A stretch of DNA of 56,301 bases from positions 1 through 56,301 of the forward strand of contig MVRU01000009.1 in NCBI GenBank assembly GCA_002067745.1, given 5' to 3'. A program made the translations under genes and the position numbers. Under the pieces are notes generated by a model. That model saw nothing but the letters and a program-made list of their open reading frames with translations, was not told the origin of the DNA and did no database searches. Shown here piece by piece: positions 21,984 through 56,301 of the stretch; the stretch's first letter is position 1, and each line of letters begins with the position of its first letter. The stretch comes from Syntrophus sp. PtaU1.Bin005 (GTDB lineage: Bacteria; Desulfobacterota; Syntrophia; Syntrophales; Syntrophaceae).

Positions 21984-22184
21984 TCAATCGTCGGCATTGG
22001 GCATGAGCTTATCCGGCGGACTCTGCAGACCGCGGATATCGCGGGACATCACATGGGTATATATCTCCGTTGTCTTGACATCCGCGTGGCCGAGGAGTTC
22101 CTGAATGACGCGGATCGTGACCCCGTTTTCCAGCATGTGCGTGGCAAAACTGTGACGCAGCGTGTGACATCCCACTCTTTTGGT
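21984..22184 (-). pseudogene. Tyrosine recombinase C-terminal fragment, integron-integrase-like
   Basis: About 66 residues in the minus frame, starting abruptly at [15 protein letters not shown] and ending [14 protein letters not shown]. It has the second half of the catalytic site: HxLRH, GH in [10 protein letters not shown] and nucleophile Tyr in [10 protein letters not shown]. The tail after the Tyr resembles IntI-type integrases. About three quarters of the gene is missing; the upstream end abuts the ISL3 fragment at 22185. Confidence 0.8.
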
Positions 22185-25351: not shown

Positions 25352-25594
25352 GTGACGCTGGAAGAAAAAGTTCTAGAAATTATTGTCGAACAGCTGGAAG
25401 TGACAAAGGAGGAGTGCGTCCCTGAGGCATTCTTTATTGATGATCTCGGGGCTGATTCTCTTGATTTGGCGGAATTGCTGCTGGAGATGGAAGACACCTT
25501 CGATGTGGAGATTTCCACCGAAGAGCTCAAGAAGATCCGTAAGATCCAGGATGTAATCGATTTTCTCAAGGCGAGGAATGTAACCTGGGATTGA
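25352..25594 (+). CDS. acpP: Acyl carrier protein
   Basis: 80 aa, GTG start behind GGGGAGGAA. Phosphopantetheine attachment at Ser36 in LGADSLDLAELLLEMED. Acidic four-helix protein that carries growing acyl chains. It lies 187 nt before fabF. This is the conventional ACP, in contrast to the variant at 50231-50479. Confidence 0.95.
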   Translation: MTLEEKVLEIIVEQLEVTKEECVPEAFFIDDLGADSLDLAELLLEMEDTFDVEISTEELKKIRKIQDVIDFLKARNVTWD

Positions 25595-25781
25595 AAGCGC
25601 CCCGGTCCGGATCTTCGATCACGGGCGATCGGCCTGGCCGTCCCGCCTCCCCATGTTGCAGGGGCTGTGCGAGGATGACAGAGAGGAAGCCTTCAGGGGC
25701 GGGATGCTCTGTTTCAGGGCCCGGCAACCGGAACGTGACGAAGCGTCGATTTAACAAAACAACTTGAAGGGAATGCGTTCC

Positions 25782-27023
25782 TTGAAAAGGAGAGTCGTCA
25801 TAACCGGTATGGGCGCTGTGACGCCCCTGGGAAACTCCGTTGCGGAGACATGGGCTGGAATCTGCGCGGGACGCTCCGGCATAGGACCGATAACGAAATT
25901 TGACGCCTCGGATTTTGAAACCCGCATAGCCGGGGAGCTGCAGAACTTCGATCCGATCGCTTACGTCGGCAAAAAAGAGTTGCGACGTCTCGATCCCTTT
26001 ATTCTCTATTGCCTGGCTTCAGCGGAGATGGCCGCCGCCGATGCGGAGCTGACCCTTAAGGATTCCCAGGCCCATCGTGCGGGTGTCGTGATCGGTTCGG
26101 CCATCGGCGGCCTGACCACCCTGGAAAAGCAGAAGGAGATTCTCCTGCGCAGCGGCCCCCGTAAAATCTCCCCTTTCACCGTTCCTTCGGTGCTATCCAA
26201 TCTGGGGGCTGGAAATGTCTCCATACGCTTCGGCGCCCGGGGACCCATCGGCTGCCCCGTCACGGCCTGCGCTTCCGGAACGACCGCGCTGGGCGACGCC
26301 TTCCGGCTCATCGCATCGGGATATGCCGATGTCGTTTTTGCCGGAGGAGCTGATGCCGCGATCACCCCGATGGCCGTGGCCGGTTTCACCGCCATGGGCG
26401 CTCTTTCCCGGAGAAACGATGAACCGCGGAAGGCCAGCCGCCCCTTCGACCTGGACCGCGACGGATTCGTCATCGGCGAGGGATGCGGCATTCTGATTCT
26501 TGAAGAGCTTGATGGCGCCAGGGCGAGAGGGGCAAGAATCCATGGAGAAATTCTGGGATACGGAACGACCGGCGACGCGTTTCACCTGGCCGTCCCGCCT
26601 CCCGGTCATGAGGGAGCGGTCCGGTGCATGCAGGCCGCCTTGCAGGATGCCGGGATCGGCCCTTCCGATGTCGATTATGTAAACGCCCACGGCACATCGA
26701 CACCCCTTAACGACCGGTACGAAGTGGAGGCCATCAAAACCGTATTTGGAACCTCGGCCGGTCGACTTCTGGTCAGCTCGACAAAATCCATGACGGGTCA
26801 CCTTCTGGGCGCAACAGGGGGCGTGGAAGCGATCCTTACCGCGAAGGCGCTTGAATCAGGGATCATTCCCCCGACCATCAATCTTGAGACGCCTGATTCC
26901 GGCTTTGATCTGGATTTTGTTCCCCTATCGGCGCGGAAGAGCGATATCCGGATCGCCATGTCCAACACCTTCGGCTTCGGCGGGGTGAATGCAACCATCA
27001 TCTTAGCGAAATATTTCGAGTAG
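25782..27023 (+). CDS. fabF: 3-oxoacyl-ACP synthase II (KAS II)
   Basis: 413 aa if the TTG at 25782 is used; AAGGGA ends 9 nt before it, whereas an ATG at 25773 has no room for a site. The numbering then matches E. coli FabF: Cys163 in TACASGTTALG, the His of NAHGTSTPLND and the His of KSMTGHLLGATGG complete the Cys-His-His triad. It elongates acyl-ACP with malonyl-ACP. It follows acpP and precedes rpiB by 6 nt. Confidence 0.95.
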   Translation: MKRRVVITGMGAVTPLGNSVAETWAGICAGRSGIGPITKFDASDFETRIAGELQNFDPIAYVGKKELRRLDPFILYCLASAEMAAADAELTLKDSQAHRAGVVIGSAIGGLTTLEKQKEILLRSGPRKISPFTVPSVLSNLGAGNVSIRFGARGPIGCPVTACASGTTALGDAFRLIASGYADVVFAGGADAAITPMAVAGFTAMGALSRRNDEPRKASRPFDLDRDGFVIGEGCGILILEELDGARARGARIHGEILGYGTTGDAFHLAVPPPGHEGAVRCMQAALQDAGIGPSDVDYVNAHGTSTPLNDRYEVEAIKTVFGTSAGRLLVSSTKSMTGHLLGATGGVEAILTAKALESGIIPPTINLETPDSGFDLDFVPLSARKSDIRIAMSNTFGFGGVNATIILAKYFE

Positions 27024-40875: not shown

Positions 40876-42042
40876 ATGAGTCGAGTTGCAGTTATTGGCG
40901 TAGGACAAAGCACCTTTGTTCGAAGCTATCCCGGTTCCATCAGGGAATTGGCGTTTGAAGCTTATAGTGAAGCAATGAAGGATGCAAATATACAGAACTC
41001 GGATGTTGACGCGACGGTCATGTGTTCCGCCCCCGAGTATGACAAGCAGAGATCCCCGGCTGGTGTTGTAGCCGAATATCTGGGTTTGAATCCCCAGCCG
41101 ACCTTCTATGTTGAAACCCTCTGTTCATCCAGCAGTACGGGATTGAAGCTGGCTTACTCCCTGGTTGCATCCGGCCTCCATGACTGCGTTATGGTTCTGG
41201 GCTTCCAGATCATGTCCCAGTTGACCTCCAATGAGTCCCAGGAAAGAATGGGCCGGGGCGCCGACATTCAGTGGGAATCGACCTTCGGCACAATGATGCC
41301 TGCCTACTATGCCCTTCATGCCCAGGCTCACTTCGCAAGATACGGAACAAAACCGGAAGATCTCGCAAATATCCGTGTGAAATCAGCAACTTACGGTGTT
41401 CTGAATGACCGCGCCGTTTATCGGAAACCAGTGGCCCATGAAGATTTCCTCGATCCCCAGAAGATGGGCGGACCGGTCGCCAGCCCTCTGCGCGTGGGAG
41501 ACTGCTGCGCAAACGCCGACGGCAGTTCCTGCATCATCGTCGCCAACGAAGAGAAGGCGAAGAGATTCTGCAAGAAGCCTGTCTGGATTCTCGGCGTCGG
41601 CGCCGCTTCGGCCTCGGTCAACATGGTCGGGCGTGAATCTTTGAGCGGGTTGGCGGTTGGCATTGAAGCGGGTAAGCAGGCTTACAAAATGGCCGGCATT
41701 ACGCCGAAGCATATCGATGTTGCTGAAGTCCATGACTGCTTTACCATTGCCGAAATGATGGCCATTGAAAACCTCGGTTTTGCAGAGGCGGGCGGCGGTC
41801 CTGAATTGGTCCGTGCCAAAGAGACCTATAAAGAGGGAAGCATCCCCGTCAACATCGACGGCGGTCTTCTTTCCAAGGGGCATCCCATCGGAGCAACGGG
41901 TGGTTCGCAGGTTCGGACCATCGTTCGTCAGCTGAGGGATGAGGCTGATAATATTCAGGTGAAGGATCCGATGTTCGGTCTGGTTCATAACATCGGTGGT
42001 GTCGGCTTGTACGGTAGTGTGACTATTTTTGGGAGAGAATAA
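40876..42042 (+). CDS. Thiolase-family acyl-CoA acyltransferase
   Basis: 388 aa, strong AGGAGG site. Nucleophile Cys83 in VETLCSSSSTGLKLAY, EVHDCFTIAE carrying a catalytic His, and the C-terminal GGLLSKGHPIGATG. It belongs to the SCP-x-like thiolase branch that works as a complex with a DUF35 partner, encoded 2 nt downstream. Known pairs of this kind include archaeal acetoacetyl-CoA thiolase and the benzoylsuccinyl-CoA thiolase BbsAB. In a syntrophic anaerobe, cleavage or formation of a 3-oxoacyl-CoA is likely; the substrate is not known. Confidence 0.88.
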   Translation: MSRVAVIGVGQSTFVRSYPGSIRELAFEAYSEAMKDANIQNSDVDATVMCSAPEYDKQRSPAGVVAEYLGLNPQPTFYVETLCSSSSTGLKLAYSLVASGLHDCVMVLGFQIMSQLTSNESQERMGRGADIQWESTFGTMMPAYYALHAQAHFARYGTKPEDLANIRVKSATYGVLNDRAVYRKPVAHEDFLDPQKMGGPVASPLRVGDCCANADGSSCIIVANEEKAKRFCKKPVWILGVGAASASVNMVGRESLSGLAVGIEAGKQAYKMAGITPKHIDVAEVHDCFTIAEMMAIENLGFAEAGGGPELVRAKETYKEGSIPVNIDGGLLSKGHPIGATGGSQVRTIVRQLRDEADNIQVKDPMFGLVHNIGGVGLYGSVTIFGRE

Positions 42043-45145: not shown

Positions 45146-45817
45146 ATGATCTGCAGCGAAGCATTGTTACAAAACAGAATCGGTGTTCTTGATCTTCAGG
45201 GAGGGGTTTGCGAGCATCTGGACCATCTGGAGCGTCTGGGAATAACCGGAAAAAGAGTCAAAGAATCCGGTGATTTTGAAGATATTGCGGGGTTGATCCT
45301 CCCAGGTGGGGAGAGCACCTGCCTTTCCCGGCTGATGCGGATCTTCGGAATGGAAGAGGCTTTGCTGGCTGCCTTTCATCGGGGCATGAACATCTGGGGG
45401 ACCTGTGCCGGTGCGATTCTCCTGGCAACCCGCGTTCTGGGAGAAAAGCCTCATCTCGGGCTGATTGACATGGCCATTGAACGGAACGGTTTCGGTTCGC
45501 AGCTGGACAGTTTTTATCGCGAAGCTTCAATTCCCGAGGTCTCTCCGGACGCCATCCCCCTCACCTTCATCCGGGCTCCGAAGATCGTCGGCGTTGGACG
45601 CGATGTCAAGGTCCTCCTGCAATTTGAGGACTATATCGCTGCCGCGGAAAACGACCGGGTACTCGTCACCGTGTTCCATCCGGAATTAACGCCCTGCCTG
45701 GCCTTTCATCGCTATTTTGCCCTGAAATGCGGTGCCTTGACTCCAGAAAGCCTTGTCGACGCCACCGGGCATTTCTGGAATGCAACAAGCTGGACCCGGC
45801 TTGCTCCACATGCCTGA
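45146..45817 (+). CDS. pdxT: PLP synthase, glutaminase subunit
   Basis: 223 aa. LQGGVCEHLDHLERLG start, GGEST loop, catalytic Cys87 (WGTCAGAIL), His178 and Glu180 (VFHPEL). The family normally ends near HRYF; here about 30 extra residues follow and overlap the convergent lipoprotein gene by 132 bp. The start lacks a clear ribosome site; coupling to pdxS 20 nt upstream is likely. Confidence 0.93.
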   Translation: MICSEALLQNRIGVLDLQGGVCEHLDHLERLGITGKRVKESGDFEDIAGLILPGGESTCLSRLMRIFGMEEALLAAFHRGMNIWGTCAGAILLATRVLGEKPHLGLIDMAIERNGFGSQLDSFYREASIPEVSPDAIPLTFIRAPKIVGVGRDVKVLLQFEDYIAAAENDRVLVTVFHPELTPCLAFHRYFALKCGALTPESLVDATGHFWNATSWTRLAPHA

Positions 45818-46489
45818 CCGGCTTGAGAGCAATTCAATCTTCCGGCGGATTTTCTCTTCTTTTTCCATGTCCGACCGGCTCCGGTAAAACGATTTCAGGC
45901 GGTCAAGATAAATCAGCAGGGGCCTCCTCCAGCCATGAACGGAAGCGAGGTCCACTGCACCGGTCAGCAGGGCTTCGTCCTCCCCTCGATAGCGGACCGC
46001 CAGCCCCGTGGCGATCAGCCGGGAGAGATCATCGCGGATTCTGTGAACCGACCCGGAGATCTCCTCCCTGTCTCCCCTCTCCAGGGCTGCGGCAAGGTCC
46101 TGATAGGAGGGCGGAAGGTGCTCTCTCTGGAGCGAGTCGAAGCTCCCCGCCAATAAGAGATAATAGTTTTTTTGACGATCGGCACCGGCCGGATCGGCTT
46201 TTGCGATTTCGAGATATTCCCGGTGGTCGGACGTTTCAAGGACAGCGATCCGGAGCGCAGACCGGGTCAGGTAAGCCGTCATAAGCAGCGATAAATCGCC
46301 GCTTCTTTTAATTTCCTCAATGGCCTTTTGAAAGTGAAATTCAGCCGTTGTGTCCTTTCCCGACAGAAAATCGCTCTTGTATCGTTCCAGATGGGAAAAG
46401 CTGGCCGTTCTCCATTCCGGGACGGATTTCCCGGCGCATCCGCATAACAGAAGCAGACAGCCACACATGAAAGCCAGGTATCGTTTCAC
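45686..46489 (-). CDS. Lipoprotein at the end of the MCE operon
   Basis: 267 aa. Signal peptide with lipobox LLLCGCAGK, so a membrane-anchored lipoprotein. The mature part is helical with TPR-like character (EFHFQKAIEEIKRSG, YLEIAKADP). Not recognised as MlaA or another known accessory. Its ATG overlaps the MCE gene stop by 4 nt, placing it firmly in the operon. The last 44 residues are antisense to pdxT. Confidence 0.75.
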   Translation of the reverse strand: MKRYLAFMCGCLLLLCGCAGKSVPEWRTASFSHLERYKSDFLSGKDTTAEFHFQKAIEEIKRSGDLSLLMTAYLTRSALRIAVLETSDHREYLEIAKADPAGADRQKNYYLLLAGSFDSLQREHLPPSYQDLAAALERGDREEISGSVHRIRDDLSRLIATGLAVRYRGEDEALLTGAVDLASVHGWRRPLLIYLDRLKSFYRSRSDMEKEEKIRRKIELLSSRSGMWSKPGPACCIPEMPGGVDKAFWSQGTAFQGKIAMKGQAGR

Positions 46490-47439
46490 GGCAGTTTTAT
46501 CCTGGGCTCCTTCCTGAAGGGGATTTTCCTGTCCAACTCCTTGACAAGACTGTTGATCGTGCTGATCGTTTCATCGATGTCCCTGCGCAGCACTCCGAGA
46601 TCCTTTGTCGATGCGTCCACGTTGGCGCCCACGTTGTTTACATGGATAACGAACTGATCCAGTTTGGCCAGCTTGCCCACAAGATCCACCAGGAGCGTTC
46701 GCATGGATGGGAAAATTCCGTCCTTGCCGTAAAGGGCTTCATCCGATTTTACAGCCATGGCATCCACCGTCTTTAAAATGCGGGTCATCTCCGTGGTTAT
46801 TTCCTCTGTATTTTTGAGTGCTTCCTGTACGGCGGACACCGTATCCGGGTTGCCCAAGGCAAGATCAAGAAGGGAATCCGTGCGGGCCAGCCGCTCGGCC
46901 AGTGTTTCCGTGTGACGCAGAATCTGATTCACGTTTCCCTTCGGGTCGACCAGGTTCGCCGTCAGGGTTTCGATATTGATGGTGATCCGGTTCAGCCGCT
47001 CCACGACCGGTTCCAGTTTCTTGATGGTTGTGTTGATGTCATTGGCCACCACAACTTCCTTGATCGCTTCCGTGGACAGGGGGGGACTGCTCATTTTCCC
47101 CGTGGAAAGTACGATGCGCGGATCGCCGATCAGCGGCTTGTTGATGATAAACACGCTGTCCCGCCGAAGCCATTTCGCATGCCGGTGGAGAATTTTGATC
47201 CGGATCAGGATGCGCCCGTCATCGCCGAGTTCCAGGGCATGCACTCTGCCGATCTTGTAGCCTGACAGGAGGACCGGCATACCCTCCGTCAGATCTTCAC
47301 CGGAAAAGGAGGCCAGTGTGTACGTGTCCACCCGGGAAAAAACATCCTTCTTGTAGGCCACATAACCGATGGCGGAAACAATCAGCACCGAGGTGATCAG
47401 GATGAACAGCCCGACCTTGTATTCAAGACTCCGAAACAT
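46486..47439 (-). CDS. mlaD: MCE/MlaD-family periplasmic lipid-binding protein
   Basis: 317 aa. One N-terminal membrane helix (about 10-28), then a single MCE domain (about 38-120: SFSGEDLTEGMPVLLSGYKIGRV) and a long helical tail (about 125-300) with repeated coiled-coil segments. MCE proteins form hexameric rings or tubes that shuttle lipids between inner and outer membranes. Its start overlaps the degenerate ABC gene by 17 nt. Confidence 0.9.
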   Translation of the reverse strand: MFRSLEYKVGLFILITSVLIVSAIGYVAYKKDVFSRVDTYTLASFSGEDLTEGMPVLLSGYKIGRVHALELGDDGRILIRIKILHRHAKWLRRDSVFIINKPLIGDPRIVLSTGKMSSPPLSTEAIKEVVVANDINTTIKKLEPVVERLNRITINIETLTANLVDPKGNVNQILRHTETLAERLARTDSLLDLALGNPDTVSAVQEALKNTEEITTEMTRILKTVDAMAVKSDEALYGKDGIFPSMRTLLVDLVGKLAKLDQFVIHVNNVGANVDASTKDLGVLRRDIDETISTINSLVKELDRKIPFRKEPRIKLP

Positions 47440-47845
47440 CTTTTATCCTATAGCGGTCGCGATTCCATGAATAATCCAAAATCCTGCAGGAGAAATAAAG
47501 GTCATCGATCCGGGTCAGACTGTTCTCGATCAGTTCCGCATCGGGCAGATCAGGCACGAGACGAAAGGGCCGGTCAATGACGATCAGGGCATCCTGGACC
47601 ATCGCCGCCCGCAGCAGTTTGACCAGGTAGCGTTCCCAGTGATCCAGCGCCGCAATTCGCAAACCGGCGATCTCCCGCTTCTGAAAACGGTTCAGAAGAC
47701 CCACGACGACCCTCTTCGCCTGCAGCCTGCTTTCGCTGAGATGGTAAAGCCGTATTAGAGCAATATTCAGCCACACATTCAAGTTGGAAATCAGGGGAAT
47801 GTCCGTTGAAACAAGCCCGAGGTTCTCCGGATGCCTCTCCTTCAA
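47423..47845 (-). CDS. Degenerate ABC-transporter ATPase subunit (MlaF-like remnant)
   Basis: 140 aa from TTG 47845. It holds the gene position of an MlaF ATPase, and its middle follows that family: ISNLNVWLNIAL resembles the Q-loop/helical region, AALDHWERYLVKLLRAA lies where LSGGxxxRVxLARAL should be, and ALIVIDRPF replaces the Walker B LLLLDEPF. Walker A is absent. The frame stays open upstream to about 47905 but offers no normal start codon or Walker A. Either a decayed ATPase or a re-purposed non-ATPase subunit. It overlaps mlaD and follows mlaE by 44 nt. Confidence 0.6.
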   Translation of the reverse strand: MKERHPENLGLVSTDIPLISNLNVWLNIALIRLYHLSESRLQAKRVVVGLLNRFQKREIAGLRIAALDHWERYLVKLLRAAMVQDALIVIDRPFRLVPDLPDAELIENSLTRIDDLYFSCRILDYSWNRDRYRIKDVSES

Positions 47846-47889
47846 ATCCGAAAGGGCCTCGTCAAGGCGATTCTCATCTTCAAATAATA

Positions 47890-48675
47890 TTAAATGGAGC
47901 TTAGGATTAATGACAGGACCTCAATGACGACGATGGCTATAAATACGTTATTCATACCGGTCAAAACGGCTATGGGAATGCTGGACAATTCATTCGATGC
48001 CGTCAAACCGTATCGAATCGGAAGCAGGGTGATAAAAAATCCGAAGGTTGCGCATTTCAGGATCAGGATCACCAGGTCCGAAAAGTCGGCGGATACAACC
48101 AGAATCCGGATGTAGGCATCGAATGCCAGACCGAAAATCATCCGCGAAAACAGGGCCCCGCTCGCCAGAAGCACGAGGGTGAAAATGCCGTTGAGAAGAA
48201 CGACGGAAATGATTCCGCTCAAAATTCTGGGGACAACGATATAATCGAAGGCGTCGATTCTAAAGACATTCAGCGCATCCAATTCCTTGCTGACCTTCAT
48301 GACCGCCACCTCCGTGTTGAGCGCCGCCCCGGAGCGCAACGCCAGCAGGAGCACGGTCATAAAGGGGCACACCTCCGTGAAGATGAAGCCCATCAGAATA
48401 TTACCCAGATTCCCCGCCATCCCCATCTGTTTGATGGAGTCAAGGACGATCCCCATCAGAAACAGGCCCATCAGGGCGGAAATATAGATGAACAGGGGCA
48501 GTATCTGTACGGCCGTAAAATACAGCTGCGTGATGATGACCAGTTGAGTGGCCTTATTGTACGTCTTGAGGTCAAGGAGATGAAGGATGACCTGCCAGGT
48601 AAAAAAAAGCGTTTCGAATGCGGAACGGCAAAGCTTTAACGTCCTTGTGCCTATGCCTTCAATAAAAGTAACCAT
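47890..48675 (-). CDS. mlaE: MlaE-family ABC permease
   Basis: 261 aa with five or six membrane helices. The conserved cytoplasmic segment RSGAALNTEVAVMKVSKELDALN, normally GxxxAAELGTMKVTEQIDAL, marks the MlaE/YrbE family that pairs with MCE proteins. It moves phospholipid or another lipid across the inner-membrane face of the system. The gene starts the transport half of the operon, 132 nt after the phosphopantetheinyl transferase. Confidence 0.93.
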   Translation of the reverse strand: MVTFIEGIGTRTLKLCRSAFETLFFTWQVILHLLDLKTYNKATQLVIITQLYFTAVQILPLFIYISALMGLFLMGIVLDSIKQMGMAGNLGNILMGFIFTEVCPFMTVLLLALRSGAALNTEVAVMKVSKELDALNVFRIDAFDYIVVPRILSGIISVVLLNGIFTLVLLASGALFSRMIFGLAFDAYIRILVVSADFSDLVILILKCATFGFFITLLPIRYGLTASNELSSIPIAVLTGMNNVFIAIVVIEVLSLILSSI

Positions 48676-48807
48676 TGAATTTCCGCAATCCAGGGTGCCG
48701 TGGTGATGATTCCTCGTCTTTACATGCCCTCAGGCAAAACATGCATTTCCGGAAAAACTACCATAGGAAGGCAAGGAGTGCAAATCCCAAAACGAAGGCC
48801 TTTCAAA

Positions 48808-49497
48808 TCAGGGAACGGAAGGTTGCAGGAGGCAGGCATGGGCCAGAAACAACCCGTCATGACTCAGGCTGATGTCAACATCAAGGAGCCGGCCCCGGCA
48901 GAAGACCCGGGGCGGTGCCGCTGAAGATCCCTTCTGCTGCCGGACAATCTCCAGGTCCTCGAAATGCTCGGAAAGCAGTCCCGCAAGATAGAACCTTGCC
49001 GCCAGCCGGCCGGCCTCGGTATCGGGAGCGCGCCCCCCCTGAAGGGATGAAGAAAGGTAGTGAACATGACGGAAAACGCTCAGGGTATCCGGAGCGTGAG
49101 TAAAGGCAAGGCAGTGGAGGTAGGTATGGCGGTATTCAATCCGGATCCAGCACCTCCCAGCGGGCGTCAAGACGGAACCTGCAGACAGACGTGGAAAGAA
49201 AAGGCCCTGGATGTCCGGAGATTCCGTTCCGGAATCTTCATGGCCTTCAGGGTCTATGGAGACCGGAAAGAGCTTCGGGATGGCTGGTATGTCAGGACAG
49301 GCCTTGCTGATGGCTTTGTAAGCCGCTTCCTTGGCCGCCCAGCAGCACCAGAGCCTCAGTTCCGGGAAGGCGGATGAGGACAGGATGAAGTCCTGTTCAT
49401 CAGGCGTGAAGACGCGGTTGAGGAAACGAATATTTCTGCTCTTCTTTTTTGCAGTGGATTGGGTCAGATCCACGATGTCGTTGCCGACATGAGGCAA
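48808..49497 (-). CDS. 4'-phosphopantetheinyl transferase
   Basis: 229 aa. VGNDIVDL with metal ligand Asp7 and WAAKEAAYKA with Glu57 are the two PPTase motifs. A third block, DISLSHDGLFLAHA, lies near the C-terminus. It converts apo-ACP to holo-ACP and probably serves the variant ACP at 50231-50479. Its start lies 98 nt inside the upstream acyltransferase gene, in another frame. Confidence 0.87.
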   Translation of the reverse strand: MPHVGNDIVDLTQSTAKKKSRNIRFLNRVFTPDEQDFILSSSAFPELRLWCCWAAKEAAYKAISKACPDIPAIPKLFPVSIDPEGHEDSGTESPDIQGLFFPRLSAGSVLTPAGRCWIRIEYRHTYLHCLAFTHAPDTLSVFRHVHYLSSSLQGGRAPDTEAGRLAARFYLAGLLSEHFEDLEIVRQQKGSSAAPPRVFCRGRLLDVDISLSHDGLFLAHACLLQPSVP

Positions 49498-50221
49498 AAT
49501 GCTGTTCCTCCATATGGGCGAGTTTCTGTATGCATTGAGCCGCGTAGTGACGGTGCGCCCTGCGGCCGCTCAATTCCGTTGGTGCCGGTTCAATGACATC
49601 GACCAGCACGGAAAACTTTTCTCCCCACCGGGGCAGATTGCTGTATTGATCCTGATGATCTCCCCGGAGGTATAGGCAAAGCACTTTGCACTCCCTGCAG
49701 CAGTCGATCAACTGACCAATCCCGTAGGAAAAATTCTCCGTGTCCACATGGCCGATCCGGGAACGGCCCCCTTCCGGGAAAATCATGACATTCTGCTTGC
49801 TGTTCAATACGGCAAGACATTGGTCGAGTGTGGACTGGACCTCCTGGCGACCGGCTCCGCGGCTGATCGGAATGCACTTTGTAAGATAACAGACAACCGT
49901 GAGAAAGAGATTCCGTTGGAAATTCGCCCGCTCCGGAACGTTCCAGGGGAGCGTCTGATAGCTCAGAAGAAAACGGTACAACGGCGCGATGGCATAGGTC
50001 AGAATGGCGGAATCGATCATCGTCAGATGATTCGCACAAATGATCCACGGCCCTTCATGGATTTTGAAGAGCTCGTGGCATTTATGGCGGATCCTGCGGA
50101 TGTCCCGGATTCGGTAACCCGCAAGGCGTATGGCAAGATATATCAATGGACCGACAATAAAAACGGCGATTCTGCCGAGAGCATATTGCAGTCTGAGAGA
50201 ATTATTTCCCGCTTTCTTCAT
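49400..50221 (-). CDS. PlsC-type 1-acylglycerol-phosphate acyltransferase
   Basis: 273 aa. An N-terminal membrane helix (about 15-33) is followed by the acyltransferase motifs NHLTMID (His65, Asp70), RANFQRN, and FPEGGRSR at 148-155. It would move an acyl group from ACP or CoA to a glycerolipid or other alcohol. The final 32 residues overlap the PPTase gene. Position directly after ACP suggests acyl-ACP from this operon is the donor. Confidence 0.87.
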   Translation of the reverse strand: MKKAGNNSLRLQYALGRIAVFIVGPLIYLAIRLAGYRIRDIRRIRHKCHELFKIHEGPWIICANHLTMIDSAILTYAIAPLYRFLLSYQTLPWNVPERANFQRNLFLTVVCYLTKCIPISRGAGRQEVQSTLDQCLAVLNSKQNVMIFPEGGRSRIGHVDTENFSYGIGQLIDCCRECKVLCLYLRGDHQDQYSNLPRWGEKFSVLVDVIEPAPTELSGRRAHRHYAAQCIQKLAHMEEQHFASCRQRHRGSDPIHCKKEEQKYSFPQPRLHA

Positions 50222-50230
50222 GAAGAACCC

Positions 50231-50479
50231 TTAAGCCAGTTTGCTTTGAACCACTTCGATTGCATTTCCGATGGTCCGGATTTTGTCGGCATCGTCGTCA
50301 TCGATCTCTATTCCAAAGACATCCTCACATTTGATGATGACGTCCACAAGACGCGCGGAATTGACTTTGAGGTCGTTGAGAATGTGGGTATCTTTTGTCG
50401 CCGTTTCCAGAAGGGCGGGGTCCTTGGCGTAAAGCCTCAGGATGTTGATCAACTCTTCAAAAATCTTTTTTTCGTCCAT
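50231..50479 (-). CDS. Variant acyl carrier protein
   Basis: 82 aa from ATG 50479, behind AAAGGAG. The attachment Ser41 lies in LKVNSARLVDVIIKCED instead of the usual DSLD, so Asp-Ser-Leu became Asn-Ser-Ala. The rest is a typical acidic helical ACP. It is the dedicated carrier of the second fatty-acid-like set and differs clearly from acpP at 25352. Confidence 0.88.
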   Translation of the reverse strand: MDEKKIFEELINILRLYAKDPALLETATKDTHILNDLKVNSARLVDVIIKCEDVFGIEIDDDDADKIRTIGNAIEVVQSKLA

Positions 50480-50512
50480 TTTAATGCTCCTTTTCAATGC
50501 TCTTATTTGTTT

Positions 50513-51790
50513 TTATTCTTCCCATTTCTTAAAAATCAGGCAACTGTTCACATCGCCAAATCCGAAGCCGGCTTTGGCGATAATTTTCAAATCCGGGCAC
50601 TCCACCGTCTGATGCGGAATGCTTTTGGAAAAAGCGGTAATCTCCGGATGGACATCCTCGCAGTTGATGGAGGGATGGAGAAACCCCTTGTAGAGCTCCA
50701 GCACAACGGCAACGCACTCAATGGCCCCGGCTGCACCAAGGCAATGACCGACCATGGACTTTGTTGACTGGATGTAGGGGAAATTTTCCGGACCGCGTTC
50801 TAACGCTCCGGTCCAGTTCTTCACCTCGTAGGGGTCAGCGAAGGTGGCCGTCAGGTGGCCGTTGATGGCCTCGATGTCCTGAGCCGAAATCCCCGCGTCG
50901 GCGATGGCTGCAAGGATGCACCTCTTGACCCCTGTCGGATTGGGGGCGGTCATAGAGCCCCCCATTCGGTGTCCGCCGCAATTGACGTGCCCTCCGAGCA
51001 GCTCCGCGTAAATGCGGGCGCCGCGGGCCTGAGCCGTTTCCAGGTCCTCGAGAAGAAGAAGGGCCCCCCCGGATCCTGGAATAAATCCGCCGGCTGATGC
51101 GCTCATCGGCCGCGATGCCTCTTCGGGGCGGTCATTCGATTTTTTGGAGAGCACCCGCATGGCATCGAAGCCCGCCCAGATATGGGGTGAGGCGCCTTCC
51201 GTGCCGCCGGCCAGCATGCGCTTGGCCAATCCGGCCCGAATCCGCGTCATGGCATCAAAAATGGCTTCATTGCCGGTGCTGCACGCCGAGGAGTTGGAGG
51301 TCACCTGGTTTCCCAGGGCCAGCAGTCCGCCGACACGCGCACTGGTCCCGCTGTTCATGACCTGTTCGACAATGCTGCTGCCCATCCGCTTCACTTTTCC
51401 CGCATTGACCATGGGAACCACGATATTGGCGATGGTGTCCATCCCCCCGATGCCGGAACCGACGATAATGCCCGAATCCCAGTCCACCTCATCGGAATCG
51501 AATGAAGGGACGGTCAGCCCGGCATCCCTCCAGGCATCAACCGCTGAGATTGCTGCGTAGCTGATATTCTCATTCATCGAAATCAGCTGTTCCGGGACGA
51601 AATATCGCTCCCGTATCGCCTCGACACCCTGCGGGATTCCACCGACCTGACAGGCAAAATTGAGCTCCTTCAACTCCGGAATATAGCGAATCCCGGACCG
51701 TCCTTCACGAAGGGCCGCTTCATATTCCTCCAGACCATGACCGTTGGGTGCAAGGACACCCATTCCTGTAATAACGACTCTACGTTTCAT
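50513..51790 (-). CDS. KAS II-like 3-oxoacyl-ACP synthase
   Basis: 425 aa. FabF fold with intact triad: Cys170 (SSACSTGNEAI), His312 and His349 (KSMVGHCLGAAGA). Around the first His the sequence is NGHLTATFADP rather than NAHGTSTPLND, indicating a distinct subfamily, perhaps with altered chain or partner specificity. It condenses acyl groups with malonyl-ACP. Its start overlaps the FabZ-like gene by 11 nt. Confidence 0.92.
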   Translation of the reverse strand: MKRRVVITGMGVLAPNGHGLEEYEAALREGRSGIRYIPELKELNFACQVGGIPQGVEAIRERYFVPEQLISMNENISYAAISAVDAWRDAGLTVPSFDSDEVDWDSGIIVGSGIGGMDTIANIVVPMVNAGKVKRMGSSIVEQVMNSGTSARVGGLLALGNQVTSNSSACSTGNEAIFDAMTRIRAGLAKRMLAGGTEGASPHIWAGFDAMRVLSKKSNDRPEEASRPMSASAGGFIPGSGGALLLLEDLETAQARGARIYAELLGGHVNCGGHRMGGSMTAPNPTGVKRCILAAIADAGISAQDIEAINGHLTATFADPYEVKNWTGALERGPENFPYIQSTKSMVGHCLGAAGAIECVAVVLELYKGFLHPSINCEDVHPEITAFSKSIPHQTVECPDLKIIAKAGFGFGDVNSCLIFKKWEE

Positions 51791-52259
51791 GCAACATAAC
51801 CCCCGCCCCGGCTAGTACACCAAAACAGATATTTTCACCGTTTTCCCGTTCCATACTGATCTTTGTTTTAAGGCTTCCTCTCCGGAAATATATTTTTTCA
51901 CCACGGATGACCACCCGTTCGCCGGGCGATACAATATTATTGAATTCGACACTTTCTACAAACGTAAAAAGGGTTGTCAATTGTCTGGTCTCTTCAAGAG
52001 AATTGTGCTTCTGCTGCATTGTCAGATAAAGCCCGAAAGCCACGACGCCGGTCTGGGCCATCGTTTCAATCAGAATCACTCCCGGGGTAATCGGACGGTC
52101 AGGAAAGTGTCCCGTATAGAAATACTCGTCCTCGCGATAACGGTATGCGCCGACGATGTGATTCTCGTCGAGCTCGATGATCTCATCGATGAACCGGAAG
52201 GGGTATTGCTGGGGAACCGCCTTCAGCACGAGATCCATGGTTTTTCGATCAGCCCCCAT
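51780..52259 (-). CDS. FabZ-like hotdog dehydratase
   Basis: 159 aa from ATG 52259, chosen for GGAGG 5 nt upstream; ATG 52277 is weaker. Catalytic His51 (YTGHFPDRPITPGV) and Glu65 (LIETMAQTG) are 14 residues apart, as in FabZ. It dehydrates 3-hydroxyacyl-ACP. It overlaps fabG-like by 11 nt. Confidence 0.9.
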   Translation of the reverse strand: MGADRKTMDLVLKAVPQQYPFRFIDEIIELDENHIVGAYRYREDEYFYTGHFPDRPITPGVILIETMAQTGVVAFGLYLTMQQKHNSLEETRQLTTLFTFVESVEFNNIVSPGERVVIRGEKIYFRRGSLKTKISMERENGENICFGVLAGAGVMLHET

Positions 52260-52983
52260 AAAGGCCTCCGTTGACATGAATCACCGTCCCTGAAATATAG
52301 GAGGCCCGGCAGGCGAGGAAGGAAACCACATCGGCGATCTCCTCCGGAGAGCCGAGACGCCCCAGGGGGATGCTGTCCAGGATGCGCTTTTTGACTTCCT
52401 CGGGCAGATTCTGGGTCATCGGGGTGTCAATGAATCCCGGCGCAATGGAATTCACCAGGATGTTTCTTCCCGTCAGTTCCTTGCAGAGCGACTTCGTAAA
52501 GGCGTCCAGGGCGGCTTTTTCCATCGTGTAGGGAATTTGCCCGCTGTTCCCGGTATGGCCGACGACGCTGGAGATGTTGATGATGCGACCGCTGTTTTTC
52601 CGGAGCATGAAAAGCCGCAGAATCCGTTTGGTCAGATACCAGCTTCCCCGGACGATGGCCCGCTGCAGATCGAAATCCTCCAGCGTCATACTGTTGATGT
52701 CCTTGTTGATGGAAATGCCTGCGGCATTGAGAAGCACATCGACACGGCCGGCCTGCTCCTTGATTTCGGCAAGCATGGACTCGACCTGGCCGGCATCCGT
52801 GAGGTCGGCCTTGAGAAGAAATCCGTCTTCAATCTCCGCAAGAACGGCCTTGGCCTGCTCTTCAACGATATCGATATAATTGATTCCCACCCGGAAACCT
52901 TCCCGGGAAAGAACCCTGGAACAGGCGGCGCCGATGCCCGTACCGCCCCCCGTCACTATCGCCACTGGTTTATTCGAACTCAT
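52249..52983 (-). CDS. FabG-like 3-oxoacyl-ACP reductase (SDR)
   Basis: 244 aa. Cofactor motif TGGGTGIG at 11-18, NAAG at 86-89, catalytic Ser139 (INISSVVG), Tyr152 and Lys156 (YTMEKAALDAF), SIAPGFIDTPMT near 185. The Asn that completes the usual SDR tetrad is not evident (AIVRGSW where VNLxG is expected). NADPH reduction of 3-oxoacyl-ACP is the likely role. Confidence 0.92.
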   Translation of the reverse strand: MSSNKPVAIVTGGGTGIGAACSRVLSREGFRVGINYIDIVEEQAKAVLAEIEDGFLLKADLTDAGQVESMLAEIKEQAGRVDVLLNAAGISINKDINSMTLEDFDLQRAIVRGSWYLTKRILRLFMLRKNSGRIINISSVVGHTGNSGQIPYTMEKAALDAFTKSLCKELTGRNILVNSIAPGFIDTPMTQNLPEEVKKRILDSIPLGRLGSPEEIADVVSFLACRASYISGTVIHVNGGLYGG

Positions 52984-52985
52984 GA

Positions 52986-53576
52986 TTAGCTCCTGATGAT
53001 TCCTCCCGTCGAATTGCGGGAGTGCTTGGGATAATCCGGGTAAACGATGCCGCTGAAAACACCGGACTGGGCCTTGTTGATCTCCGTGATCAATTCGTTG
53101 TCGACAAAGACTTTCGCATCGCCGATAACCACGCTGGAACCGGAATCTTTCAACTGGGAAAAGCGGCGGATATCCACTTCGTAGCGGACGCAGCGGTTAT
53201 ACGGACGAATCTGGCCGTTGAAGGAAACGTTTTGGCAGCCGAGCGCCCTACCCGCCCCGAGGGCCCCGCGCCAGACACAGTAAAACCCGAGCAACTGCCA
53301 GACGGCATCGACACAAAGACAACCCGGCTGGATAGGATCCCCGGAGAAATGACACTGAAAATACCACGCGTCAAGGCGAATATCCTGTTCCGCCACAATG
53401 CGGCCTTGACGACCGTCGTGGGTGATCGTCAGAATCCGATCCATCATGAGAAAGGGGGGCGCAGGAAGGCGGGCGTCAAAGCCTTCGGGGCGATTTTCCA
53501 CGAGATTACCGTAAGCAAAGGCCAGCAGATCTTCAAGGCTGAAGCTGCCGCGTTCGCGAAACTCCTCATAGGTCAT
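52986..53576 (-). CDS. FabA-type 3-hydroxyacyl-ACP dehydratase/isomerase
   Basis: 196 aa. Close in pattern to E. coli FabA: FQCHFSGDPIQPGCLCVDAV with His76 and Asp90 (14 apart, as His70/Asp84), WQLLGFY, and QNVSFNGQIRPYNR. Begins with SLEDLLAFAYG. FabA both dehydrates and isomerises to the cis-3 enoyl product, allowing anaerobic unsaturated chains. It overlaps the KAS III gene by 4 nt. Confidence 0.88.
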   Translation of the reverse strand: MTYEEFRERGSFSLEDLLAFAYGNLVENRPEGFDARLPAPPFLMMDRILTITHDGRQGRIVAEQDIRLDAWYFQCHFSGDPIQPGCLCVDAVWQLLGFYCVWRGALGAGRALGCQNVSFNGQIRPYNRCVRYEVDIRRFSQLKDSGSSVVIGDAKVFVDNELITEINKAQSGVFSGIVYPDYPKHSRNSTGGIIRS

Positions 53577-54553
53577 AATTGATCCTCAATTTTCAATAGG
53601 GTATGCACCCATGTCAGACCGCCCCCCACAACGCAGACCGCCACGTGGTCGCCGGGGGAAAAGTCGTTCCAGTGCTGGCTCAGAACAGCAGGAGCGCCGG
53701 AGCAGCCTGTGTTGCCAAAATATTCAACATTGTGCCAGTGCTGCTCCTCCAAAATGCCAGTGCGCTCGCAGGCGGTGCGGAGCATCCCGAGATTGGCCTG
53801 ATGGCCGACAAAGCGGTTGACCGGGTAAACGGACTGCAACGCCCGGATGGAGTCCGTCGTCTTGCGGATGGCGAACCCCTGAACCGCATGCCCATCCTGG
53901 CGAAAATAACCCATCCGGGGAATAACTACCTTTTCCCAGGCTGTGGGCTTCGAATCACAGAAACTGGAGAGAAAGACGGCCCCGGAGGACTCCCGCGTTG
54001 AAACCACCGCCGCTGCGGCTCCATCGCCGAAGAGAACGGCGACGGCGCGATCCGAGTAATCCACGCTCCGGGTCATGGTTTCCGGATTGACGATCAGTAC
54101 GAAAGGGGGAAGAGTCTCCGGTTTCATCATGTCCAGGACGTGAATATCCATCCCGAAGCTGCTGCAGGCCGAATTCACGTCGAAGCAGGGGACGTCGATG
54201 TTCAGTTCCGCGGCGACGGTCGATGCCTCCGCCGGTGTCAGATGATCCGAAGCGGAACTTCCCGAAATCACCATCCCGATATCGCCGGGAGAAAGCCCGG
54301 CGCGTTCGAGGGCCATCTGCGCCGCGAAGGCGGCGATCTGTGCGTTATTGTAGTCAGAGGCCTCTATCGCCGCCCGTGGATCCACATTTTTTGTGGAGCG
54401 GATATAATCGAGGGACATGACCGTCCGGCGGGCCGCAATGCCGACCCGCTCCATGATCCATTCTTCGTTCGTACCGATGTCCAGTTCTTCCAGAAAAGCA
54501 TTGCTGATGACATTTTCAGGATGAAAATGACCTAAGCCGTGAAGATATAGCAT
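53573..54553 (-). CDS. KAS III / FabH-like synthase
   Basis: 326 aa. Triad Cys130 (VNSACSSFG), His251 (FVGHQAN) and Asn281 (YFGNTGCSG) intact. It likely primes chain synthesis from an acyl-CoA. Compared with FabH there is an insertion near 45-60 (SLDYIRSTKNVDPR). Starter unit unknown; in a benzoate or cyclohexane-carboxylate degrader an unusual starter would be conceivable. Confidence 0.9.
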   Translation of the reverse strand: MLYLHGLGHFHPENVISNAFLEELDIGTNEEWIMERVGIAARRTVMSLDYIRSTKNVDPRAAIEASDYNNAQIAAFAAQMALERAGLSPGDIGMVISGSSASDHLTPAEASTVAAELNIDVPCFDVNSACSSFGMDIHVLDMMKPETLPPFVLIVNPETMTRSVDYSDRAVAVLFGDGAAAAVVSTRESSGAVFLSSFCDSKPTAWEKVVIPRMGYFRQDGHAVQGFAIRKTTDSIRALQSVYPVNRFVGHQANLGMLRTACERTGILEEQHWHNVEYFGNTGCSGAPAVLSQHWNDFSPGDHVAVCVVGGGLTWVHTLLKIEDQL

Positions 54554-54560
54554 AATTATC

Positions 54561-55757
54561 TCATACCAGTTCCCGCCCGATGATCATATCCTGAACCTCG
54601 CGGGTGCCCTCATAAATATCAATGATGTGCACATCACGAACGAGTTTGGAAATCTCATACTCATTGGTGAACCCGTAGCCGCCGTGCAGGTGCAGCCCCT
54701 CGTTGCAGCAGAAAAGAGCGGTTTCCGCGGCCATGTTTTTCGCGAGGGACGAATAAATCCCTTTATCGGGCGCGTCTTCCATGATTTTGATGGCGGATTT
54801 TAACAGAGCCAATTCGGAAAGTTCAACCTTTTTCCACATCGAGACAAGGGTCTGCCTGGCGACCGGGATGTCACAGAGCCTCTGGCCGAAGAGTTTGCGC
54901 TCCTTCGCATACGACAGGGTCAGATCAAAGGCCCTTTTTGCCACTCCGACTCCGATGGCTGCAATCATGGGACGGGCGAAATCCAGGACGTCGATCACGT
55001 ACTTGAAGCCCAACCGGCGATCTCCGATAATTTGGCCGGGTTCGAGCAGAACATCCTCGAAGGTCACGCCGGCTGTGTTGGACAGGCGCTGCCCAAGTTT
55101 GTCTTCCGGTTTGCCGACTATGATCTTTCCGCCTGTGGGCAGCTGAATTTCCCGAACCCCGTCAATGGGGGACGCCGCGTCGAGGGGAAGGGGAGGAACG
55201 GGGATGATCGCACAGGCCATCAATTGGCTGGAAGGTTTTCCCACCTTGCAGAAAACGGTGAATTGAGAGGCATAGGTGGCATTGGTGATGAAACACTTCG
55301 ACCCGTTGAGGACATACCTGCCGTCTTCCCGCTTTGAAATATAGGAGGTCATGGAAAGGTTGTCCGAACCTGCGGCCGGTTCCGTCAGGCAGAAGGCCGA
55401 GAGCAGCGGGGCATCGACAAAGGGCTTCAGATAGGCCTGCTGCTGAGCTTCCGATCCGTGCTGGGCAATAACGACGTTCGCCAGGTCATTGCACATGGCG
55501 GACGTTGCAAGGCCGGAATCGCCATAGGAAAGTTCCCGGATGATCAAGGCGGCTGATACCACATCGACATGGTACCCCTTGATGGATTCCGGGACGGAGA
55601 TATTCATGATGCCCATATCCCAGACCTGTTTAAGCAAATCCACTGGGAACACGTGCTTCCGGTCCATCTCAAGGGCGTGGGGAAGAATCTCGTTCTTGAC
55701 AAATCGCGAGACCGTGTTCACGTACATCTGCTGAGTTTCGTTCAGGCTTAGATCCAT
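54561..55757 (-). CDS. Acyl-CoA dehydrogenase-family flavoprotein
   Basis: 398 aa. FAD contacts in FCLTEPAAGSDNLSMTS and CFITNATYA, and the catalytic-base region DIYEGTREVQDMIIGREL with Glu383. Full length for the family. Inside a fatty-acid-synthesis-like operon it may reduce enoyl-ACP, or desaturate an acyl-ACP, since no enoyl reductase of the FabI, FabK or FabV type is present. It is 7 nt from the KAS III gene. Confidence 0.92.
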   Translation of the reverse strand: MDLSLNETQQMYVNTVSRFVKNEILPHALEMDRKHVFPVDLLKQVWDMGIMNISVPESIKGYHVDVVSAALIIRELSYGDSGLATSAMCNDLANVVIAQHGSEAQQQAYLKPFVDAPLLSAFCLTEPAAGSDNLSMTSYISKREDGRYVLNGSKCFITNATYASQFTVFCKVGKPSSQLMACAIIPVPPLPLDAASPIDGVREIQLPTGGKIIVGKPEDKLGQRLSNTAGVTFEDVLLEPGQIIGDRRLGFKYVIDVLDFARPMIAAIGVGVAKRAFDLTLSYAKERKLFGQRLCDIPVARQTLVSMWKKVELSELALLKSAIKIMEDAPDKGIYSSLAKNMAAETALFCCNEGLHLHGGYGFTNEYEISKLVRDVHIIDIYEGTREVQDMIIGRELV

Positions 55758-55787
55758 AGCTTATCCTTTCTTGAGAAATAAACGGGT

Positions 55788-56301
55788 TTAAAGGTTCGAT
55801 GCTTTGTCGGCGTTACGAAAGAGGCGTTGGGCCGCGGAAAGGGCCGTGATGGAAGAGCAGGAGACGCCGATGGTCTTGAAAAAGTCCCTCAGCGGTCTGC
55901 CGGGTCCGATTTCATAGACGGTTTTGGTTGTGGAAGACAACGCTCTCATGTTATCGATCCAACGAACGGCGGAACTCAGTTGTAAAACGAGGGCGTTTAA
56001 AATAGCATCCGCCTCTGGACGGTGGTAGGTTCCGGTGTAGTTGGAAGTCACTGCTGCCGCCTTTTCGGGCTGCCAGGAAGATGCGGTGGCGATCAGGACC
56101 TGCTGGAAAGGTTCGCCGATGGCTTTCATGAACCGGCTGTGAAAAGGGGCGCTGACACGCAGTGCAACGACGCGGAACGACGGATCGGCAAACCGCTCGG
56201 ATAACCGCTTCTCTGCGTCAGGCAAGGCCTCGACGGCCCCGCTGATGACCACCTGGGAAAGGGAGTTTTCATTTGCAACATCGACAGGCAGATCCGACAG
56301 C
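55788..56301 (-). CDS. Malonyl-CoA:ACP transacylase, C-terminal part (runs off the window)
   Basis: About 171 residues up to the window edge, frame open at 56301. Contains VVISGAVEAL and the second catalytic element VSAPFHSRFM with its His, followed by VTSNYTG and the terminal VYEIGPGRPLRDFFK, all typical of FabD. The Ser nucleophile part lies outside. It would load malonyl groups on the variant ACP. Confidence 0.85.
   Translation of the reverse strand, partial: LSDLPVDVANENSLSQVVISGAVEALPDAEKRLSERFADPSFRVVALRVSAPFHSRFMKAIGEPFQQVLIATASSWQPEKAAAVTSNYTGTYHRPEADAILNALVLQLSSAVRWIDNMRALSSTTKTVYEIGPGRPLRDFFKTIGVSCSSITALSAAQRLFRNADKASNL

Follow-up and report, generated by a model that had tools for sequence, protein, structure and literature searches.

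How does an MCE-type lipid transport unit work if its ABC-like subunit lacks the motifs of an ATPase, and what ties such a unit to a set of fatty acid synthesis (FAS) genes that directly precedes it? These questions are raised by a gene run at one end of a contig from Syntrophus sp. PtaU1.Bin005. The window, that is, the whole stretch of DNA that was analyzed, is the entire contig MVRU01000009.1 (C9) of 56301 bases; its genome is called G000 here, and the other G and L numbers denote genomes and loci of relatives. The initial annotation had described at least 14 minus-strand genes in a row, from 45686 to 56301, encoding FabD, an acyl-CoA-dehydrogenase-family protein (ACAD), KAS III, FabA, FabG, FabZ, KAS II, acyl carrier protein (ACP), PlsC, 4'-phosphopantetheinyl transferase (PPTase), MlaE, an ABC-like protein, an MCE protein, and a lipoprotein. 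These frames and their order were verified. In our view, the locus is best explained, and fairly probably so, as two modules that stand in tandem in Syntrophus: a block for core fatty acid synthesis and an MCE unit with a non-hydrolysing pseudo-ATPase for which AUU or AUC serves as the start codon.

An MlaF-like protein without ATPase motifs

The MCE unit comprises the last four genes of the run. The permease MlaE (47890 to 48675) matches PF02405 with 148.6 bits (cut-off 22.5), and the MCE (MlaD-like) protein (46486 to 47439) matches PF02470 with 27.8 bits (cut-off 25.1). The ABC-like gene (47423 to 47911) lies between them, and the lipoprotein gene (45686 to 46489) closes the run. Throughout the run, the functions named in the initial annotation agree with Pfam and NCBIfam, except for the ABC-like frame and the lipoprotein, neither of which has a family match when searched alone; several of the NCBIfam matches score below the curated cut-off. 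The ABC ancestry of the ABC-like protein was borne out by the searches described below. What had escaped the initial annotation is that this protein is a truncated, MlaF-like ATPase core of 162 aa from which the ATPase motifs are gone, and we refer to it as the pseudo-ATPase.

The MlaE clade of this unit (best E below 1e-24) was found in 89 of 155 Syntrophales genomes, and we compared 86 MlaE junctions, one from each of 86 of these genomes (G033, G148, and G152 were left out). The pseudo-ATPase gene is present at 85 of the 86 loci and missing from L185, which consists of an MlaE fragment with its surroundings and spans 1.3 kb. Complete copies, of 154 to 169 codons counted from ATT or ATC, account for 82 of the 85, and two more run off the stretch. 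The P-loop (Walker A) pattern occurs in none of the 85 copies. In a table of the ATPase motifs, in which the H-loop column of the Syntrophales rows is not reliably aligned, all 15 of these rows lack Walker A and have both LSGG and the Walker-B Glu replaced. The pseudo-ATPase has lost the first ~30 residues, the P-loop, LSGG, which is replaced by an LTxEE-like sequence, and the Walker-B Glu, in place of which most copies have Arg and some Gln. In 24 aligned sequences, which are 37–78% identical to the window copy, 14 columns are invariant, namely F10, PLISN (39–43), N49, L52, L73, L89, R101-A102, P115, and Y154. The dN/dS values computed for the window and three relatives were 0.13–0.18 for the pseudo-ATPase, 0.10–0.16 for mlaE, and 0.12–0.24 for the lipoprotein, showing that the pseudo-ATPase is under purifying selection.

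The ancestry of the protein was examined by domain and profile searches and by its predicted fold. The Pfam family ABC_tran was matched weakly by 11 of the 24 family members (best 8e-5) and not by the window copy, and a profile search matched ABC ATPases in the PDB with a best E of 2e-7. An AlphaFold model built from the 24 sequences (mean pLDDT 93.2, pTM 0.90) matches ABC ATPases including chain I of the MlaFEDB structure 6xbd (Foldseek E 2e-7), which we take to be MlaF. The superposition on this chain aligns 158 residues with a Z of 14.9 and an rmsd of 2.8 Å, and covers chain residues 32–218. The pseudo-ATPase is thus predicted to keep the fold of the ATPase core. In one of the genomes left out of the junction comparison, the MlaE-clade match (G033:C188:1249-1857) contains eight in-frame stops, and the unit may be decaying there.

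A probable AUU or AUC start codon inside mlaE

In the window, the pseudo-ATPase frame that starts with ATT (47909 to 47911) overlaps the 3' end of mlaE by 22 nt, and a Shine-Dalgarno-like GAGGTC (47917 to 47922), likewise within mlaE, precedes this codon. Comparison of the junctions revealed that GAGGT, 6 nt, and then ATT or ATC in the pseudo-ATPase frame are found at 84 of the 85; ATT follows in 74 and ATC in 10 of these, and the remaining junction, L153, has GAGGC and ATC. The motif reads GAGGTG in 79 of the 84 relatives that carry GAGGT, compared with GAGGTC in the window. Codon usage at 162 conserved mlaE columns, all of which are affected alike by the relatedness of the genomes, served as a control. 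The median share of a single codon was 0.52, and the four highest shares among the 162 columns all fall within this stretch: GAG (85/85), TCA (79/79), TTA (71/73), and GTG (79/84). At six other conserved Glu columns of mlaE, GAG is the minority codon (7/70 to 29/66). The simplest reading of the constrained stretch is probably a Shine-Dalgarno motif followed by an AUU or AUC start codon. An AUG would hardly be possible at this site because mlaE would then acquire a Cys, a Trp, or a stop.

Start codons of this kind have precedents, for example, the AUU of E. coli infC. Two reports describe further cases, namely cvfC1 (AUU) as well as infC and ccpN (AUA) of S. aureus and pcnB (AUU) of E. coli (PMC13009471), and sigR of Streptomyces, which starts with GTC (PMC5472188). 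A conserved non-canonical start is common to those genes and to the pseudo-ATPase, and the strong Shine-Dalgarno motif resembles the S. aureus cases. In contrast to the known genes, the start proposed here lies within the upstream gene mlaE and belongs to an ABC-like subunit.

Sister systems in the phylum

The full-length form of the pseudo-ATPase (E ≤ 1.2e-52) was found in 13 of the 395 genomes of a phylum sample, all of them Syntrophales, and the next match is far weaker (1.9e-13). Candidates for a full-length pseudo-ATPase outside the Syntrophales were rejected, as the Walker A pattern is present at 15 of the 17 next-best loci that were inspected. Among the next-best matches outside the order are ATPases encoded beside MlaE or MCE genes that have in common an LISN or LIAN motif after the Q-loop. 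Ten such ATPases (L195-L203, L206), encoded in other genomes of the phylum, all lack the H-loop His and have an altered LSGG (10/10 each). The catalytic Glu is replaced by Gln in L197 and L199 and by Asp in L202. Both the P-loop and Walker B are missing from L196 and L198, whereas L206 has lost Walker B and retains a variant P-loop (APVASGKS). The MCE operons of L196, L198, and L206, with full-length ATPases that lack the P-loop and/or Walker B, are probable instances of further motor loss.

In a tree of MlaE proteins, rooted on one of the MlaE proteins of G000 itself, seven sister MlaE proteins and those of the Syntrophales form a clade with a support of 1.0 (the MlaE proteins of L196, L197, and L200 were absent or too short). 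Neither L205 nor the two other MlaE proteins of G000 belong to this clade. The tree of the ATPases is less clear in its agreement (0.70), and there L204 falls within the group. Judging from these comparisons, the H-loop His and LSGG would have been lost at the outset, followed by the catalytic Glu, the P-loop, and, in the Syntrophales, the N-terminal part, an order that we infer. Elsewhere in G000 (L186:3975-5222, contig C11), the MlaF of another Mla system is extended at its C-terminus by ~150 residues, in which a divergent GGDEF-type domain seems recognizable by eye.

The fatty acid synthesis block

The ten genes that precede the MCE unit encode enzymes and a carrier protein of fatty acid synthesis. 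FabD, the malonyl-CoA:ACP transacylase (MAT), is represented by its C-terminal 170 aa (55788 to 56300; NCBIfam TIGR00128, 5e-22, below the cut-off as a partial sequence); it is incomplete because the window ends where the contig ends. Next come the ACAD-family flavoprotein (54561 to 55757; Pfam Acyl-CoA_dh domains), the FabH-like KAS III (53573 to 54553), and a FabA-type dehydratase/isomerase (52986 to 53576) that matches NCBIfam NF003509 with 200 bits (cut-off 124) and TIGR01749 below its cut-off. They are followed by a FabG-type ketoreductase (KR; 52249 to 52983), a FabZ-type dehydratase (DH; 51780 to 52277), a FabF/FabB-like KAS II (50513 to 51790), ACP (50231 to 50497), a PlsC-type acyltransferase with an intact HX4D motif (49400 to 50221; PF01553), and the PPTase (48808 to 49497; PF01648, 1.9e-12). 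KAS III, FabG, FabZ, KAS II, and ACP were assigned by Pfam and NCBIfam matches and by their catalytic residues, the catalytic Ser in the case of ACP. Thus, the type II FAS set of MAT, KAS III, KAS II, KR, DH, and ACP is all present in the block. The catalytic residues that were checked in the FAS genes of the window are all intact; of FabD, only the C-terminal half lies within the window. Spacings of 2–33 nt had been reported for most of the run besides overlaps; the overlaps are real, and, apart from the 132-nt gap discussed below, the actual range extends from a 98-nt overlap (PPTase/PlsC) to a 30-nt gap. In two relatives (L076, L077), FabD heads the run and is preceded by a divergently oriented response regulator/histidine kinase pair; the names of these neighbor clusters, and of the HtrA-like one mentioned below, come from one Pfam-scanned member each.

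The block is conserved well beyond Syntrophus. A pattern scan that used KAS III to search the genome collection yielded 29 loci, mostly from Syntrophaceae and other deltaproteobacterial bins; one is labeled Acidobacteria and one Pseudomonadales. The organism names of these loci (L005-L033) are those given to metagenome bins and could be mistaken. As far as each locus extends, the order FabD-ACAD-KAS III-FabA-FabG-FabZ-KAS II-ACP-PlsC-PPTase is maintained, with few departures: ACAD is absent from two of the 29 loci (L027, L028), FabA from four (L016, L018, L023, L026), FabG from L007, and FabD from L027, and L025 has a gene of 513 aa between PlsC and PPTase. The presence of block genes in relatives was judged by BLAST, and the picking of open reading frames sometimes took antisense frames. 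Catalytic residues were compared in 36 loci wherever they could be read, and they are conserved almost throughout: the Glu of ACAD (34/34), Cys/His/Asn of KAS III (33/33), Cys/His/His of KAS II (31/31), His/Asp of FabA (27/27), the catalytic residues of FabZ (31/31), HX4D of PlsC (30/30), the Ser of ACP (30/30), and, in FabG, Ser (29/31) and Tyr (30/31). In the block of another genus, g20, a gene of 480 aa that by eye resembles a biotin-dependent carboxyltransferase lies between FabD and ACAD (L188:7354-8796, L189:8376-9818, L190:1165-2607).

Does the block serve core or specialized lipid synthesis? A search for FabD in eight genomes found a single copy, located at the block, in seven (G000, G073, G074, G002, G035, G031, G036) and two copies in G090; none of the block copies reaches the curated cut-off, some falling just short of it. 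KAS III paralogues were sought in 12 genomes at E ≤ 1e-10. The block KAS III is the sole match in G009, G078, and G090, whereas in G000 and G074 there is one additional match near 2e-11 to 3e-11, which in G000 is a thiolase-like gene at 40876-42042 in the window. G073 has three weaker matches beside the block copy (best 1.5e-27). The block KAS III is, therefore, the only clear KAS III found in G000. Among the same 12 genomes, FabI had no match at E ≤ 1e-15 in eight and FabK none at E ≤ 1e-10 in four, and neither was found in G000, G073, G074, and G009. No FabL scored over the cut-off in the 12 genomes, though members of the short-chain dehydrogenase/reductase family (SDRs) score below it, and the search for FabV, which lacked a positive control, is uninformative. 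Outside of the gene run, the window contains a housekeeping FabF on the plus strand (25764 to 27023; over the NCBIfam cut-off) with an ACP-like frame just upstream (25352-25594); by eye, no frame for fabD, fabH, or fabG was seen beside this pair at 25352-27023. The PlsC of the block is one of three PF01553 acyltransferases in G000. Because the only FabD and the only clear KAS III are in the block, and FabI and FabK were not found, a role in core fatty acid synthesis is likely, and from its gene content the block looks like one for core rather than special lipids.

This leaves the step of enoyl-ACP reduction. Known bacterial enoyl-ACP reductases are, according to a review, FabI, FabK, FabL, FabV, and FabMG (PMC9260719), and 'acyl-CoA dehydrogenase' is not a term used in its main text. 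For the ACAD, the best NCBIfam model is the acryloyl-CoA reductase AcrC, below the cut-off. In the two loci without an ACAD gene, L027 and L028, KAS III is preceded by an SDR that matches FabL best among the NCBIfam models, though below the cut-off. Since FabI and FabK were not found and these two loci carry a FabL-like SDR instead, the ACAD is the leading candidate, and we propose that this flavoprotein is likely to be the enoyl-ACP reductase of the block. It would catalyze the same step as the known enzymes and come from a different protein family.

Independent conservation of the two modules

The initial annotation treated the run as one operon, with a widest gap of 132 nt between PPTase and mlaE. 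This gap is indeed present (48676-48807), and a search for a sigma-70-like promoter or a terminator in it found no match to either. Across the 155 Syntrophales genomes, KAS III (E ≤ 1e-30) was found in 123; the lists were copied by hand. Both MlaE and KAS III occur in 73 genomes, MlaE only in 16, KAS III only in 50, and neither in 16, so that co-occurrence is not above chance (Fisher odds ratio 1.46, p 0.42). Many assemblies are fragmented, and a location on different contigs is no proof of distance; hence, only block loci with sufficient sequence, at least 1 kb beyond PPTase, were counted. Among these 19 loci, mlaE continues the run in one (L005, Syntrophus). Conversely, the block is upstream of the MCE unit in five of 20 selected loci, all from genus g1 (taken to be Syntrophus) or family f2, and absent there in the other 15; these 20 loci were chosen by hand and included g1 and f2 on purpose, so that 5/20 is no random sample.

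A comparison of the gene order in other Syntrophales, as the initial annotation had proposed, shows that the halves do adjoin outside of the window; the outcome that it had named as a refutation, halves that never occur together, is thus not what is observed. The modules are arranged head to tail in all four genomes of g1 (G000, G073, G074, G075) and in both genomes of f2, G002 and G001, the latter with a block that is cut by the end of the contig. G009 has the modules in divergent orientation at a distance of ~8 kb, separated by four further genes, and in G078 188 kb of a single contig lie between them. Taken together, the computations show that the FAS block and the MCE unit are two separately conserved, independent modules.

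Two observations concern the surroundings of the modules. At 11 of the 19 loci for which the distance was measured (L081, L083-L087, L089-L092, L095), mlaE has a member of an HtrA/DegP-like cluster no more than 3 kb away, often divergently oriented, and a link of the MCE unit to envelope stress is possible. A short minus-strand frame in the window (21984-22175) resembles, by eye, the end of a tyrosine recombinase and is likely a remnant.

Alternative explanations

Several observations weigh against the explanation favored here, and they are best considered together with the rival readings to which they lend support. The pseudo-ATPase has lost its N-terminal part and the ATPase motifs, and one of the 85 copies, that of L173, stops at codon 57, by sequencing error or decay; these facts would fit a decaying pseudogene. 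Nonetheless, this possibility was rejected as extremely improbable, L173 notwithstanding, because the other copies are complete or run off the stretch, the dN/dS values indicate purifying selection, and the invariant residues, the constrained start region, and the high-confidence predicted fold all point to a functional protein. Loss of the motifs could also be compensated by another ATPase. G000 has two other Mla-type systems with intact ATPases, and therefore a supply of ATP in trans is possible, with the MlaF of one of them driving the MCE unit and the pseudo-ATPase acting as a partner or adaptor. Mycobacterial Mce systems, which share the ATPase MceG, would be a precedent. The pseudo-ATPase, however, retains a predicted fold that would fill the docking site on MlaE, and the sister systems lose ATPase motifs within their own operons; we consider a drive from outside the unit rather unlikely. 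With respect to the start codon, 61 of the 85 copies have an in-frame canonical start among their first 25 codons (in the window, TTG at codon 23, which would leave 44 nt between mlaE and the ABC-like gene) and 18 of the 85 have one ~48 codons upstream, whereas 24 of the 85 have no canonical start within the first 25 codons. The positions of these codons vary and would not explain the codon constraint, yet they are possible starts. The constraint itself could stem from an RNA element or from frameshifting, in which GAGGTG..TCATTA would cause a −1 ribosome shift at the end of mlaE and yield an MlaE-pseudo-ATPase fusion. The pseudo-ATPase frame is indeed the −1 frame of mlaE, and in dnaX an internal Shine-Dalgarno motif stimulates −1 shifting. 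However, no slippery heptamer was seen by eye, the 5-nt spacing from GAGGTG to ATT fits initiation, and ATC is the sole substitute for ATT in the 85 junctions, all of which renders frameshifting distinctly unlikely.

For the FAS block, the initial annotation had proposed that a single operon makes a special acyl lipid, which the PlsC-type enzyme attaches to a backbone and the MCE unit delivers outward. The tandem order in six genomes from two families, the gap without a terminator-like match, and the retention of the block's own ACP, PlsC, and PPTase in relatives whose loci are long enough are compatible with this proposal, and a functional link is possible in the two genera in which both modules are kept together. 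It is left without support by the location of the only FabD (the sole copy in seven of the eight genomes) and the only clear KAS III in the block and by the independent occurrence of the modules, which usually lie apart; accordingly, we rejected the proposal as the main explanation and regard it as very unlikely. A role in core synthesis is not free of difficulties either. The FabD of G000 is a partial gene cut off where the contig stops. An assembly gap might conceal another copy, although the single-contig relative G073 likewise has one FabD. In genus g20 (G035, G031, G032), the block lacks KAS III and FabA, so these two enzymes would be dispensable in places. An unrecognized enoyl reductase is possible, given the uncontrolled FabV search and the SDRs below the FabL cut-off. 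The ACAD might, moreover, desaturate acyl-ACP or have some other role, as models of carrier-protein-linked dehydrogenases (PigA, RedW, MbtN) also match below the cut-off. The best model is nevertheless a reductase (AcrC, itself below the cut-off), FabI and FabK were not found in G000, and two divergent relatives of the block have a FabL-like SDR and no ACAD; we therefore view a role other than enoyl-ACP reduction as possible but not likely.

Proposed mechanism and comparison with known systems

The other two proteins of the MCE unit bear on how it might work. In the MCE protein, the MCE domain is followed by a long region with a DUF948 match below the cut-off, and the C-terminus of the protein is mostly IKLP, with the last Pro invariant in the alignment. 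The lipoprotein has no Pfam match; its Cys18 is invariant, and its predicted model is all-helical. The model has no Foldseek match at E ≤ 0.001, and matches to helical repeats (Z up to 11.7, rmsd 4.7) are uninformative, so that an unlisted fold is possible. The lipoprotein frame of the window is 267 aa long, compared with ~220 aa in most relatives, and its last part (45686-45817), modeled with low confidence, overlaps the 3' end of the convergent pdxT. No frame for MlaB (STAS), MlaC, or MlaA was found in the four-gene unit of the window.

The favored explanation implies the following course of events. FabD would load malonyl, KAS III would prime, FabG, FabZ, and FabA would process the intermediates, KAS II would elongate, and the ACAD-family flavoprotein would reduce enoyl-ACP. 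Translation of the pseudo-ATPase would begin at an AUU or AUC among the final codons of mlaE, just downstream of a strong Shine-Dalgarno motif, and two pseudo-ATPase subunits would scaffold the MlaE dimer without ATP hydrolysis, a role that is likely because the predicted core fold would dock on MlaE. The MCE ring and its extension might then provide the route by which lipids pass between the membranes, the lipoprotein might be the partner at the outer membrane, and lipid gradients or another energy source might drive the transfer. We infer the assembly of the complex, its independence of ATP, the location of the lipoprotein, the direction of transfer, and the enoyl reductase role from the comparisons above; that the MCE unit works without ATP hydrolysis has, on this basis, about an even chance. 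A more far-reaching scenario, plausible if somewhat short of probable, is that a branch of Mla systems in the Desulfobacterota lost its motor stepwise, with AUU or AUC initiation setting the dose of the remaining scaffold and transport proceeding free of ATP, and that the ACAD replaced the known reductases.

The families involved are known, and it is their state that is new: this is an Mla-type unit from which the ATPase motifs are gone. In MlaFEDB, MlaF is where the coupling helix of MlaE docks, and a hydrophobic path runs without interruption through MlaE and the MCE ring (PMC7790496). The unit described here shares with it the MlaE permease, an MCE-domain protein, and a third gene derived from an MlaF-type ATPase. 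It differs from MlaFEDB in the truncated, motifless ATPase and in the absence of MlaB, MlaC, and MlaA, with a helical lipoprotein instead. MlaEFD of Veillonella parvula, for which an envelope bridge without MlaA and MlaC has been proposed (PMC10665443), is similar in its small operon and in an MlaD-type protein longer than E. coli MlaD. In contrast to the unit here, its MlaF is close to those of model diderms, and its MlaD carries an outer-membrane barrel. The combination of an MCE protein with a lipoprotein recalls PqiABC, whose operon itself contains no ATPase; the energy source of PqiA is debated, with passive transport, an unknown ATPase, or the proton motive force as candidates (PMC10897342). 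Compared with PqiABC and LetAB, MlaE and the pseudo-ATPase take the place of PqiA or LetA, and the unit contains no other membrane protein family. Unlike in PqiABC, there is a single MCE domain, and the lipoprotein is helical, whereas PqiC has sheets and helices (PMC10897342). The clustering of FAS genes in anaerobes has a parallel in the ladderane and polyunsaturated hydrocarbon clusters of Kuenenia and Desulfotalea (PMC2649909), although FabA was not located in Kuenenia. Unlike those clusters, the fourteen genes here include no radical SAM or phytoene-desaturase-like gene. Among the titles and beginnings of abstracts of the open-access literature, we found no description of a motorless MlaE system, of this block, or of such a reductase.

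If the assignments hold, an enoyl reductase of the ACAD family would be a new solution to an essential step, and a conserved AUU start within an upstream gene would be another of the few examples of non-canonical initiation. For the MCE family, it is an open question whether lipid transport needs ATP. Because the motifs are gone across an order and partly lost in sister systems, comparisons between them can be used to test what the ATPase contributes, and the unit of the Syntrophales provides a natural test.

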